Positions 31,370-35,748 of a stretch of 64,000 nt of DNA are shown in pieces (position 1 is the stretch's first letter; each line of letters opens with the position of its first letter). This stretch comes from Oscillatoria sp. SIO1A7 (GTDB lineage: Bacteria; Cyanobacteriota; Cyanobacteriia; Cyanobacteriales; Laspinemataceae): positions 1 through 64,000 of the forward strand of contig JAAHFN010000038.1 in NCBI GenBank assembly GCA_010672965.1, written 5' to 3'. The position numbers were made by a program, and so were the translations under genes. The notes under the pieces are model-generated. The model was given only the letters and a program-made list of their open reading frames with translations, had not been told where the DNA came from and ran no database searches.

Positions 31370-31728
31370 GGATAGGCGGAGGATGGCGTAAAGTTACAAA
31401 ATTTTACATATTATTTTAGGGCAAGCCTCCCTTCTGGGAGCAGCAAAGTGCCAACATCCCTTCCCAAGAGGCTACCTGCGCAGTCTTCGCCTATTGTAAA
31501 GAATTTTTAAATAATTTTCACAAACCTTTGGAAAACCCAGGGATCTTGTGCTAGGCTAGTTACCAAGAATTTAAACAGTTCCATACATTAATAACCCAAA
31601 AATTCCAATAGCATTTACTAGGTCCTCCTTAAATTGCTCGATAATTGGTTTTGGCGGGACGCACGCAAGGATGTTTATCCTAGCTATACATATTACTTGC
31701 GACAATATTATTTCCTAGACTACTACTC

Positions 31729-31755
31729 TTGAGTTTATTACTCCTGAGCTATGAT
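31729..31755 (+). promoter_or_regulatory. Candidate sigma-70-type promoter
   Basis: TTGAGT (31729) and TATGAT (31750) with a 15-bp spacer, shorter than the preferred 17. The -10 is a good match. It would start transcription of the structured noncoding region below. Confidence 0.35.
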
Positions 31756-31759
31756 AGAA

Positions 31760-32080
31760 ACCAGGGAATTTAGTCGATAGCCCAATATGCATTAAACCGT
31801 TTGGGCTTTTTCCAGGAATTTCAAGCCTGTACCCTACTTGGGGGCTTGCTTGAAATTACCTAATAGAAGAGATGCAACTCCTCTTCTCTTCAATATTCGT
31901 TGGGTGACTTCTTCATGGAACCGAAACCCAACCTGTCAAAGACCGTCCGCGCCCCTCTCTAATGAGGCTCTATTTTGCGGGCAATTTCCTTAAGCCCCCG
32001 GGTATATCTCCCGTAGGGTAAGTAGAGTCAAGCAGGCAAAAAGTGAGATTATCCCTTGCGATACTGCTCTGGTGTTGCCT
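31760..32080 (+). ncRNA. Candidate structured noncoding RNA or leader
   Basis: A region without ORFs but rich in hairpins: AGCCCAA..TTGGGCT followed by T6 (31779-31812), AATTTCAAGC..GCTTGAAATT (31817-31857) and GTTGGGT..ACCCAAC (31899-31932). A promoter-like TATGAT lies just upstream. It is free of the dispersed repeats seen in other gaps, which suggests constraint. I cannot match it to 6S RNA, tmRNA, RNase P RNA or SRP RNA from sequence alone. Confidence 0.3.
31779..31812 (+). terminator. Terminator-like hairpin
   Basis: Seven-base stem AGCCCAA/TTGGGCT with a 15-nt loop, followed by TTTTT. It lies 25 bp after the candidate promoter, so it could be an attenuator or end an upstream transcript. 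Confidence 0.4.
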
Positions 32081-32152
32081 GGTTATTCTAGAATGCTGGC
32101 TCCTTTAAGTCCCCTCTGCTCTAGGGGATGAAAAAAATCTGTTGGTTTGCGT

Positions 32153-32174
32153 CGAAGTGGTTTTACCACTTCGA
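32153..32174. other. Hairpin CGAAGTGG/CCACTTCG
   Basis: Perfect stem with a five-base loop (TTTTA) within the long noncoding region. It has no T-tract on either side and its role is unknown. Confidence 0.45.
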
Positions 32175-32403
32175 AGTGAGATCGAATAAGACATCTGTAT
32201 AATGGCCCCAACATAGCCAAAGCTGAACTTTCAGTAAAGATGTTTGCCATAACCGACAGGATATATATTAACCGACGCTTTTAAGCAGGATTTTCAGTCA
32301 CTCTTTCAGGATTTCGGAAAGGGCTGGCTTCCTGTAGATCGACCTCGTTTCCGCTCCCTATTCTGGGAAACCTTTACGTCTCCGTTACAATTATGGCCTT
32401 ACT

Positions 32404-32541
32404 ATGACTTTCATTGATATGCCTCTGATTATCCCATTTCTGGCAATGGCTTATGTGATGACAATCTATCTTCTCTTAAGCTTCGCTCAAAAAAACTCAC
32501 GTTTGATCCCAAGTGCAAACCCAAAACGTTCCGAAAGTTAG
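32404..32541 (+). CDS. 45-residue single-span membrane protein
   Basis: The frame starts MTFIDMPLIIPFLAMAYVMT, continues IYLLLSFAQ as one hydrophobic helix and ends in a basic/polar tail (KNSRLIPSANPKRSES). This is the shape of the small subunits of thylakoid complexes (photosystem, NDH or cytochrome complexes), but I cannot name it. Support for a real gene is the strong terminator 64 bp downstream and the absence of dispersed repeats here. No good ribosome binding site precedes the ATG; a second in-frame ATG (32419) is possible. Confidence 0.45.
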   Translation: MTFIDMPLIIPFLAMAYVMTIYLLLSFAQKNSRLIPSANPKRSES

Positions 32542-32604
32542 TGCCAGACGTTTAGTTAGCTTAGGGAGAAAAACACTTCTGGTTTTGCTAAAAGGATATA
32601 TATA

Positions 32605-32643
32605 GGAAGCGGCACCAATTTCTGGTGCCGCTTCCCTTTTCTC
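32605..32643 (+). terminator. Strong rho-independent terminator
   Basis: Thirteen-base-pair perfect stem GGAAGCGGCACCA / TGGTGCCGCTTCC with a five-base loop and CTTTTCTC after it. It ends the small membrane-protein transcript and insulates the peptide cassette downstream. Confidence 0.85.
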
Positions 32644-33089
32644 TAGACTTTTGCCAGCATTAAGGCCCAAGTCTTTTCTCTAACATATAGCTAATGCCAG
32701 CATCTTGGCGGCGGGCTTATTTTCAACGGCCCTATCCTAAAATATCTAAAAGATAGCAAAAATGTTATATTTTAGCTAAAAAATTTCCTATAAAAATAAA
32801 AAATAATGTATTATTATTGAAGCTAAGGGAAAAAGGATGCTGGATCTAACGCCTAATCCCAATAACCCAAAGGGCAAGATCGCGTAACAGATTGCAACAA
32901 AGCGTATAGGCCAAGGTCCGACCGATTAGCCCGATTAGCTCGGCAGGCCAAAGCGATGGACCGTTGGCTGGGGTAGGCAGCTAGTAATCTCAGCTACTCC
33001 CTTATTCTGCATCTCTAAATATATTATTCCGCAAATGCTGGGTAACATATTTAGAGTAACTTAATTACTTATCCAATTGGAGGTATATT
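32644..33089 (+). promoter_or_regulatory. Long upstream region of the peptide cassette
   Basis: About 450 bp. An AT-rich block (32760-32825, with TATAAAAATAAAAAATAATG) is a likely promoter zone. It is followed by about 260 bp of non-coding DNA containing GGGGTAGGCAGC..CAGCTACTCCC (32971-33001), a possible leader hairpin. GGAGG at 33080 is the ribosome binding site of the precursor gene. Confidence 0.35.
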
Positions 33090-33260
33090 ATGAGGGTACT
33101 ATATGGAGTATCTATCCATGAAGCTGCTGCTTCAGGGGATCTAGAAAGGATGAAGGCGATGGTGCAGCAAGCCGAAGAATGGCTTCGGGAAACAGGTGAT
33201 GTCGCAGCCGCACTTGAGGTACTTAAGCTTGAAATTGCGAAGCTGGAGCGCAATGGTTAA
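33090..33260 (+). CDS. DUF1843 / Y-X(10)-GDL peptide, probable RiPP precursor
   Basis: A 56-residue peptide with Tyr5, exactly ten residues, then Gly16-Asp17-Leu18, and two amphipathic helices after it (ERMKAMVQQAEEWLRE and AALEVLKLEIAKLERNG). This is the DUF1843 pattern; peptides with this motif are the known neighbours of a dedicated radical SAM subfamily (named for Y-X10-GDL). There is no cysteine, so thioether bridges are impossible. The conserved Tyr5-Gly6 near the N-terminus is the obvious candidate site of modification, with the helical remainder as recognition element. An excellent GGAGG lies seven bases before ATG. A stem-loop separates it from the enzyme gene. Product unknown. Confidence 0.85.
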   Translation: MRVLYGVSIHEAAASGDLERMKAMVQQAEEWLRETGDVAAALEVLKLEIAKLERNG

Positions 33261-33294
33261 TCATTCGCAAACACGCTAGTTCAGCCTCATTTGA

Positions 33295-33355
33295 GAGATA
33301 GAAGCGAATACCTTTTTTATGCTTAATAGAAAAAAACGCGATTCGCTTCTATCTC
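33295..33355 (+). promoter_or_regulatory. Stem-loop between precursor and radical SAM gene
   Basis: A perfect 15-bp inverted repeat, GAGATAGAAGCGAAT and ATTCGCTTCTATCTC, around a 31-nt loop containing T6 and A7 runs. It lies 34 bp after the precursor stop. Lacking a following T-tract it is more likely an mRNA-stabilising or partial read-through element that keeps precursor mRNA in excess over enzyme mRNA. Confidence 0.6.
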
Positions 33356-33461
33356 CAAAATATCAAAGCATAGTAAAATATCTTATTTGGTCTCTTTGTT
33401 AAAAAGATACGATCTAGCCTTCAAAAATATATTTTTAATATCTTAATCAAGAGGATTTAAT

Positions 33462-34949
33462 ATGCCAAAACCAGCTAGATTGCGCACAGAAGAGGATTAT
33501 CGAGGTAATATTCCCGTCCATGTTGTTTGGGAAATTACGCTTGCCTGCAATCTTAAATGTCAGCATTGTGGTTCCAGAGCAGGTAAGCCCCGAAACGATG
33601 AGTTAACGACTCAAGAATGTCTTGATGTCGTCGAGCGACTTGCAGGGCTGGGAACCCGCGAAATAACTTTGATTGGTGGGGAAGCGTTTTTGCGTCGGGA
33701 CTGGCTTGAGATTGTCAAAGCAATTCGCTCTCATAATATCTACTGTGCAACGCAGACAGGGGCTCTTAATTTTACTCAGGGGAAACTGGAAGAGGCAATT
33801 GAAGCAGGATTGCAGGGAATTGGGGTCTCCATTGATGGATTGCCAGAATTACACGATCGCTTGCGTGGAGTCCCCGGATCCTATGCAATGGCAATTGAGA
33901 CCTTACGGCGCGCCAAGGATGCAGGAATAAATCGCAGCGTTAATACACAAATTGGTCCAGAGACAATTCCCATGCTGCGTCAGTTAATGTATCAAATTAT
34001 CGAGGCTGGGGCACAACAATGGCAGATTCAATTAACAGTGGCGATGGGGAATGCTGTTGATAACGATAGCGTTATTTTGCAGCCATACCAGATTCTCGAA
34101 CTTATGCCTCTATTGGCTCAGCTTTTTGATGAAGCTCATAGCCAAGGGCTAACAATAATCGTAGGCAACAATATTGGCTACTTTGGCCCTTACGAACATA
34201 AACTGCGTAGCATAGAGGATGTGTCTCATTGGTCTGGCTGTTCTGCCGGTCAAACTGTTATTGGCTTGGAGGCAGACGGCACGGTTAAAGGATGCCCATC
34301 CCTGCCAACTGTAGGGTATGCAGGAGGTAATGTCAGAGACTTATCCCTTGAAGATATTTGGAATACAAGTAAAGAAATCCACTTTGGTCGGCTGAGATCT
34401 ATAGATGATTTATGGGGATTCTGCCGAACTTGCTACTACGCTGACGTTTGCCGAGGGGGCTGTACTTGGACAGCTCATTCGCTTCTAGGCAAACCCGGTA
34501 ATAATCCCTATTGCCATTACAGGGCTTTAGAGCTAGAGAAACAGGGACTGCGGGAACGAATTCGCAAAGTAAAAGAGGCGGGTGAAAGCCCGTTTGCTGT
34601 TGGTAGGTTTGAATTGATATTGGAATCAATCGCAGAAGGCGAAACAATTTCTGTATCTAGCTGGGAAGAAATGCCAAAACAACAAGAGGATACATTTGTT
34701 TTGGATTCCTCAGAACTAGCAATGACTGACGGCGATCGCTATCGAGAGGGCAGAGTACCGCCAAAACTCGAAAGATGTAAGGCATGCAATCAGTTTATCT
34801 GGCAGCACGAAGAATTTTGTCCGTACTGCAAAACAAATGTACGAGAGGCCAATGCAAAATACGATGAAGATAAAAAACGCTGGGAATCTCTAATGGACAA
34901 GATTCAGTCAATAATTTCTAAAGATATGTCGATAAGCACGGGTAAATAA
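33462..34949 (+). CDS. Radical SAM/SPASM peptide maturase with C-terminal zinc ribbon
   Basis: A 495-residue enzyme. The radical SAM cluster ligands are Cys29, Cys33 and Cys36 (ACNLKCQHC), followed by GGEAFLR, which binds SAM. The SPASM region has Cys260, 278, 321, 324, 330, 334 and 351, including CX2CX5CX3C, for two auxiliary Fe-S clusters. After a ~85-residue linker a second metal site, C439-X2-C442-X10-C453-X2-C456, makes a zinc-ribbon or rubredoxin-like knuckle at the C-terminus. Family and context (Y-X10-GDL peptide just upstream, methyltransferase just downstream) point to modification of that peptide by radical chemistry. AGAGGA precedes the ATG. Confidence 0.88.
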   Translation: MPKPARLRTEEDYRGNIPVHVVWEITLACNLKCQHCGSRAGKPRNDELTTQECLDVVERLAGLGTREITLIGGEAFLRRDWLEIVKAIRSHNIYCATQTGALNFTQGKLEEAIEAGLQGIGVSIDGLPELHDRLRGVPGSYAMAIETLRRAKDAGINRSVNTQIGPETIPMLRQLMYQIIEAGAQQWQIQLTVAMGNAVDNDSVILQPYQILELMPLLAQLFDEAHSQGLTIIVGNNIGYFGPYEHKLRSIEDVSHWSGCSAGQTVIGLEADGTVKGCPSLPTVGYAGGNVRDLSLEDIWNTSKEIHFGRLRSIDDLWGFCRTCYYADVCRGGCTWTAHSLLGKPGNNPYCHYRALELEKQGLRERIRKVKEAGESPFAVGRFELILESIAEGETISVSSWEEMPKQQEDTFVLDSSELAMTDGDRYREGRVPPKLERCKACNQFIWQHEEFCPYCKTNVREANAKYDEDKKRWESLMDKIQSIISKDMSISTGK

Positions 34950-34980
34950 GTCAAGATTTTGCAGGGGCTCTTTGTTAAAT

Positions 34981-35631
34981 ATGGGTAAGACTCGACAGCT
35001 TGTCAGGGACTTTCATAAGAGAAGTATTGTACTGAGCGATCGAGAAATTGATGCTGCCTTTGGTTTGGGAATCGCAACTGTTGAAGAAAAACTAGACTTT
35101 CTAGATCTGGTGCTTCATTATGGCCAACACAGGCTTTACCAGGGAGATATGAATTATCATGTCATCAGAGAGTTATATACAAGATTAGAAGCTTTTGAAA
35201 AATCAAGTCGATTTCATATTTCTCACATTTTAGACCTGGGCAGCGGCTACGGACGACTGGGGCTGTACGGTACTATGCTTTGGCAAAATGTTCATTTTTA
35301 TGGAATTGAGATGGTATTGGAACGGGTATTAGAAGCCCAAAAAGCCAGCAACATCCTTGGCCTGGATTCTGTGGAGTTCGTTAGTGGCGATGCGGCTCAA
35401 GCTCCTTGGCCATTTACCAACTGTTTTATAATTATGAATAGTTTTTTCCCTGAAGTTCTTGAAAAAATTTTATCTCGTTTGGAGTCCCTGTCTAAAAGTC
35501 AAGATTTTGCGATCGTTTCTGTTTGGTCGAGTAACGATTATATATATCAACAACAATGGCTTCAAGAAGCGGTTATACCTGGTTTCTTAAATGAGAAGTT
35601 AAGTATTAAGATATTTCAAACTTTTAAATAA
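34981..35631 (+). CDS. SAM-dependent methyltransferase of the peptide cassette
   Basis: A 216-residue class I methyltransferase starting MGKTRQLVRDFH 31 bp after the radical SAM stop. Motif I is HILDLGSGYGRLGLYG (about 83-98), the post-I acidic residue is in VHFYGIEMV, and ADAAQAP-like GDAAQAPWPFTNC follows. It resembles histone-methyltransferase DOT1-like or small protein methyltransferases in having IMNSFFPEVLEKIL. Same strand and tight spacing make it part of the cassette, so it may methylate the modified peptide, perhaps as a tailoring or self-protection step. Substrate is inferred only. Confidence 0.75.
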   Translation: MGKTRQLVRDFHKRSIVLSDREIDAAFGLGIATVEEKLDFLDLVLHYGQHRLYQGDMNYHVIRELYTRLEAFEKSSRFHISHILDLGSGYGRLGLYGTMLWQNVHFYGIEMVLERVLEAQKASNILGLDSVEFVSGDAAQAPWPFTNCFIIMNSFFPEVLEKILSRLESLSKSQDFAIVSVWSSNDYIYQQQWLQEAVIPGFLNEKLSIKIFQTFK

Positions 35632-35748
35632 GGTTGGAAGGATTTTAACTGGAATGAAGGTTTCTACCGTAGGACAGGCTTGCGAGAAGCCTATAAATTA
35701 TAGGGGACAGGCGGGACGCCTGTCCTACTTCTGTCCTACTTCCTGCTA

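Follow-up and report, generated by a model that had tools for sequence, protein, structure and literature searches.

The closest described systems are the PlpX and PlpXY spliceases (Morinaka 2018, as referenced in PMC11002830 and PMC10533398). PlpX, a member of IPR026482, excises tyramine from Xaa-Tyr-Gly (PMC11002830), and the natural sites of PlpXY are MYG and LYG (PMC10533398). In crystal structure work on the DUF1842-DUF1843 protein of Burkholderia a terminal domain was left unresolved (PMC10994174). In Chromobacterium, DUF1842-DUF1843 proteins and a GDL enzyme are expressed together (PMC12114271), GDL denoting Gly-Asp-Leu. In the literature searched, PMC12114271 alone dealt with the GDL family; some article beyond it may already have tested GDL enzymes.

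The stretch of DNA analysed here, called the window, comprises 64,000 nucleotides of Oscillatoria sp. SIO1A7 (contig JAAHFN010000038.1, positions 1 to 64,000). It contains a cassette of three genes, for a peptide, a radical SAM enzyme and a methyltransferase, all on the + strand and located where a preliminary description of this DNA had placed them. The features of the cassette are as follows.

33079..33083, + strand: Shine-Dalgarno-like GGAGG of the peptide gene, from sequence reading
33090..33260, + strand: DUF1843 "GDL" peptide, 56 aa, predicted splicease substrate (Pfam PF08898, 86.6 bits; HMM from relatives)
33099..33107, + strand: Leu4-Tyr5-Gly6, predicted splice site (Xaa-Tyr-Gly), from the tyrosine alignment and the PlpXY motif (PMC10533398)
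33135..33143, + strand: Gly16-Asp17-Leu18 (GDL), start of the second predicted helix, from sequence and model
33289..33361, + strand: long inverted repeat in the gap between the peptide and enzyme genes, from hairpin analysis
33462..34949, + strand: radical SAM/SPASM maturase of TIGR03913, predicted tyramine-excising splicease (732 bits versus a cutoff of 592; tree)
33546..33569, + strand: CNLKCQHC radical SAM cluster motif (C29, C33, C36), from domain match and alignment
34239..34514, + strand: SPASM domain with seven cysteines, C260 to C351, from domain match and alignment
34776..34829, + strand: CX2C-X10-CX2C knuckle (C439, C442, C453, C456) of the C-terminal extension, zinc-ribbon-like, from the alignment
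34981..35631, + strand: class I SAM methyltransferase of a subfamily almost restricted to GDL cassettes, from profile searches and a fold model

The peptide ORF starts with ATG and encodes 56 aa with the sequence MRVLYGVSIHEAAASGDLERMK... and the N-terminus MRVLYGVSI. Its score against Pfam DUF1843 is 86.6 bits (cutoff 23.3), the Tyr5-X10-Gly-Asp-Leu spacing is exact and cysteine is absent. Coordinates and motif agree with the preliminary description, which had seen in this same-strand trio a 56-residue DUF1843 peptide with that motif and had placed the methyltransferase 31 bp past the enzyme; its ATG at 34981 indeed lies 31 bases beyond the radical SAM stop codon. A sactionine or other thioether product had been excluded at that stage, and we likewise reject the sactipeptide/ranthipeptide class because the window peptide contains no cysteine.

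The radical SAM ORF encodes 495 aa and scores 732.5 bits against TIGR03913, for which the curated cutoff is 591.75, so that the enzyme is a full member of the family, with the DUF1843 gene directly adjacent. The CX3CX2C motif and the full SPASM cysteine set previously noted correspond to C29, C33 and C36 and to C260, C278, C321, C324, C330, C334 and C351, which are conserved among the relatives. The runner-up among the NCBIfam matches was TIGR04103 (Nif11-class maturase 3), which we take to be IPR026482, the PlpX family; the third family reached 161 bits. Because its TIGR04103 score of 456.4 bits falls below the cutoff of 725, the window enzyme is, by sequence score, placed in a sister family of TIGR04103 and not in TIGR04103 itself. 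In the alignment, where TIGR04103 enzymes stood for the PlpX type, the GDL enzymes showed about 50% identity to them and had in common with them dozens of near-invariant residues missing from other radical SAM proteins, e.g. in GNNxGYxGPYE, WQxQxTVAMGNA and GGEA. In the tree the GDL enzymes form one clade (98) on a long stem, nested in a clade with TIGR04103 (99). They differ from the TIGR04103 enzymes by about 100 extra C-terminal residues, which carry the CX2C-X10-CX2C knuckle in all 30 full-length GDL enzymes; none of the compared TIGR04103 enzymes has it at that place. An enzyme from a Tropicibacter oceani plasmid (L155), at first grouped with TIGR04103, branches beside GDL on a long branch. 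This splicease relative (L155, 5725-8533) has an N-terminal CX2C..CX2C stretch and is followed by a trypsin-like peptidase gene, with two more radical SAM genes nearby; it is possibly another splicing system.

Most of the cyanobacterial TIGR04103 loci that were read contain adjoining Nif11-type peptides with PLYGVV or MYGVV cores, and the mostly Nif11-type peptides at TIGR04103 loci end in one or several LYG, MYG, IYG, AYG or PYG sites. An ORF of about 72 residues, PlpY-like in size and place, follows the enzyme in 4 of the 12 loci read downstream. As judged from these sequences, the TIGR04103 loci have the gene content described for plp. At one locus (L137), the predicted product of an ORF 369 bases downstream of a TIGR04103-like enzyme contains the repeat QPKYGLPMPI several times; as every repeat includes a KYG, this protein may be a splicease substrate with multiple sites. 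The preliminary description knew of no characterised product; the likely chemistry, the TIGR03913 name and the sister relation to PlpX-type spliceases had been missed. Given this kinship and, as the invariant part of the peptides, a [L/P/M]-Tyr-[G/A] site that matches the XYG splice motif, the chemistry is more inferable than had been held.

Linkage of peptide and enzyme was followed in 28 loci from GTDB species genomes (L035-L062), with enzymes 54-81% identical, and in further loci, two on plasmids and one reached through a peptide-side search; together with the window these make 32 loci spanning Cyanobacteriota, Pseudomonadota and Bacteroidota. Each of them has between one and four copies of DUF1843 immediately upstream of the enzyme gene, and whole-genome searches of 16 carrier genomes found DUF1843 confined to the cassette locus in all 16. 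The linkage is reciprocal in the plasmids and in the locus reached from the peptide side (L164). Among 386 cyanobacterial genomes, TIGR03913 and DUF1843 both exceeded their cut-offs in the window genome only. On these observations the association is no chance one, and peptide and enzyme form a dedicated pair, as the preliminary description had claimed in assigning DUF1843 peptides to a radical SAM subfamily of their own; the neighbourhood comparison it had suggested found enzyme homologues beside such peptides throughout. The pairing itself is already known, since TIGR03913 was named after it; the name indicates no product, and none of the family names encountered refers to the methyltransferase. 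To call the system undescribed goes too far for the peptide-enzyme pair, but within the literature searched it is a fair description of the predicted splicing and of the methyltransferase.

The cassette is rare and missing from sampled same-family relatives of the window genome. Of 13 genomes sampled from the same family, 12 have murI close to the gene for prenyl diphosphate synthase, the second gene starting inside a 1.5 kb flank, whereas in the window they are separated by 4,379 bp that include the cassette (31370-35748). This spacing points to a lineage-specific insertion in the window lineage. The cassettes of Symploca and of the window have the same infC block nearby, so both may derive from one shared event. 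A second murI-like gene was seen in the window genome on contig C102.

The gap between peptide and enzyme genes contains a hairpin of at least 15 bp (z -3.3), and Calothrix and Symploca (L035, L036, L037, L060) also have hairpins there, of differing sequence. High expression of the peptide and low expression of the enzyme would fit such a hairpin. Upstream of the cassette, at 32605-32635, there is a perfect 13-bp GC-rich hairpin with a T-rich tail, terminator-like in appearance. The only known RNA family found in the window was one tRNA, away from the cassette. Genes of polyamine metabolism beside the cassette of Azospirillum B510 (L153) and an amino-acid/glutamine-synthetase-like gene set beside that of L164 were considered as clues and rejected, as neither is general among the loci.

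The methyltransferase gives weak Pfam and NCBIfam matches and a confident class I fold (predicted model, pLDDT 88); a fold search with this model retrieved generic class I methyltransferases only, with no hint of the substrate. In Aureibacter tunicatorum (Bacteroidota), three DUF1843 genes and the enzyme gene are followed 3 bp downstream by a methyltransferase gene whose product is 26% identical to that of the window (E 7e-17). A RimK-like ATP-grasp gene lies ahead of the Aureibacter cassette (L154, 3637-5013). The methyltransferase gene is also downstream in Symploca and in one Calothrix, is a decayed remnant in another Calothrix (L037, 7570-7650) in which the peptide-enzyme pair is intact, and is found upstream of the cassette on the opposite strand in five Caulobacter. 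In total, nine intact copies and one remnant were counted in the 32 loci. The remaining 22 are without it, so the core reaction cannot depend on it. With a profile built from eight members, the window genome was the only one matched among 339 from cyanobacteria; of 15 carrier genomes, 6 gave a match, each time at the cassette only. The 349 Pseudomonadota genomes gave one clear match, in a known carrier, and two weak matches of partial length. That the methyltransferase belongs to the cassette, as first proposed, is borne out by homologues at cassettes in three phyla and nearly nowhere else, and by this distribution it is a dedicated but optional partner.

Alignment of 77 related peptides (70 distinct) on the tyrosine site showed tyrosine in all 77, the sole invariant position within the compared stretch. 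It is preceded by L, P or M, with Pro in a third, and followed, among the distinct peptides, by G (54%), A (41%) or M (4%). The GDL motif varies: G or N in the first position, D, E, N or Q in the second, L, V and others in the third. Because the tyrosine is invariant while GDL varies, we read the former as the reaction site; GDL is more likely part of a helical domain. With Ala in 41% and Met in 4% of the distinct peptides after the tyrosine, a strict XYG motif, though present in the window peptide, is not general in the GDL family. A joint AlphaFold model (in-frame read-through of peptide, 68-residue linker and enzyme) had a mean pLDDT of 65 and a poor SPASM region and was too weak to show docking; its peptide portion shows three helices. 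At L164, DUF1842-1843 fusions precede the GDL enzyme and the site lies between the two domains, so the modified residue would lie inside a two-domain protein. Lysobacter-type proteins carry several DUF1843 repeats fused in one chain, with the sites LYG/LYA/PYG or MYA/LYA/PYG (L057, 5103-5843; L058, 2346-2783).

From the gene linkage, the homology, the invariant tyrosine, the common motif and the restriction of the methyltransferase to cassettes, we infer a reaction, a reaction site, a target of the methyltransferase and a role of the product. The radical SAM/SPASM enzyme would recognise the 56-aa protein by its helical DUF1843 portion and take in its short N-terminal tail, which contains Leu4-Tyr5-Gly6. 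Tyramine would be removed from the backbone and the ends rejoined, which would yield a beta-amino acid with a ketoamide at Leu4 and loss of Tyr5. We consider excision of tyramine at Tyr5 the likely reaction. The methyltransferase would then methylate the product, most plausibly on or beside the enolisable ketoamide; that it acts on the ketoamide itself is put forward tentatively. The cassette was seen to contain neither a protease gene nor an exporter gene, which makes a small modified protein that stays inside the cell the probable product.

SPASM enzymes often form crosslinks to tyrosine, and the invariant residue would be the target of a crosslinking maturase that joined the tyrosine ring to a nearby side chain (cyclophane or ether, triceptide/XYE-like). 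An XYE-type system has been guessed, as a guess only, for the Chromobacterium relative in a transcriptome paper (PMC12114271). What makes such a crosslink quite improbable is the lack of a second invariant residue near the tyrosine, together with a nearest family that is splicease-associated and scores nearly 300 bits above the third; moreover, an XYE or cyclophane maturase description is absent from the best 25 of the 75 NCBIfam matches. We also hold it improbable that the family has diverged from the spliceases in reaction and substrate and performs some other tyrosine chemistry (e.g. side-chain loss, epimerisation or oxidation). The residue at +1 is Ala or Met in nearly half of the relatives, and one third have Pro at -1, which speaks for divergence; the loss of PlpY and gain of the zinc-ribbon extension suggest a remodelled active complex. 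However, the residues common to both families, many of them missing elsewhere in radical SAM proteins, span the whole radical SAM domain, and PYG occurs in some spliceotide-type precursors too.

Whatever the reaction of the enzyme, the methyltransferase could be a passenger outside the pathway, as its lack in 22 of the 32 loci, its decay in one Calothrix (L037) and its position upstream on the opposite strand in Caulobacter might indicate. Its presence at cassettes of three phyla and practically nowhere else in the 339 cyanobacterial and 349 Pseudomonadota genomes renders this unlikely.

With tyramine excision as the preferred reading, a domain family so far uncharacterised gains a testable prediction, a single shift of -135.07 Da at one residue; the calculated monoisotopic mass is 6194.21 Da for the untagged window peptide without modification and would be 6059.14 Da once spliced. 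If the reading is correct, an uncharacterised protein family is edited by splicing in several bacterial phyla, and backbone splicing is not limited to natural products of the Nif11 type but also takes in DUF1842 fusions and small helical proteins. Among the genes that would then fall under backbone splicing are some with strong induction in dense cultures of Chromobacterium (PMC12114271) and in stationary phase in Burkholderia thailandensis (PMC12322963). A bolder and doubtful extension is that DUF1843 and DUF1842-DUF1843 proteins form a broad class of intracellular beta-amino-acid proteins made by a PlpY-independent splicease, with the methyltransferase alkylating the new ketoamide, e.g. by C-methylation of the enolisable carbon that fixes its configuration, a backbone edit followed by backbone methylation. 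A PlpY-free splicease and a methyltransferase possibly acting on ketoamides would be useful tools for the placement of ketones in proteins.

The methylation proposed here has a precedent in kind in ApyS, which in another RiPP methylates the carbon beside a post-translationally formed ketone (alpha-keto acid); there an MNIO enzyme, acting at a C-terminal Asp, produces the ketone, and the likeness is confined to the kind of reaction (PMC11117315). The DUF1842-DUF1843 proteins of Burkholderia and Chromobacterium (structures 8t0b, 8t1m, 8t1n; PMC10994174) have the same DUF1843 domain and an MYG site, but there the protein is larger and two of its domains flank the site, whereas the window peptide is the bare 56-aa form. 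With the PlpX-type systems, the window enzyme has in common the radical SAM CX3CX2C, the seven-cysteine SPASM core, about 50% identity and the invariant residues, and the peptide has in common the XYG of the substrate, here LYGV within VLYGVSI. The substrate is a DUF1843 protein lacking the Nif11 or nitrile-hydratase leader of PlpX-type precursors, and the layout is inverted, with the site N-terminal and the helical domain C-terminal. GDL peptides are single-site in most loci. The window enzyme carries the additional C-terminal zinc-ribbon extension, and beside it there is no PlpY partner; the next gene is that of the dedicated methyltransferase, which sets the window cassette apart from the PlpX-type systems.
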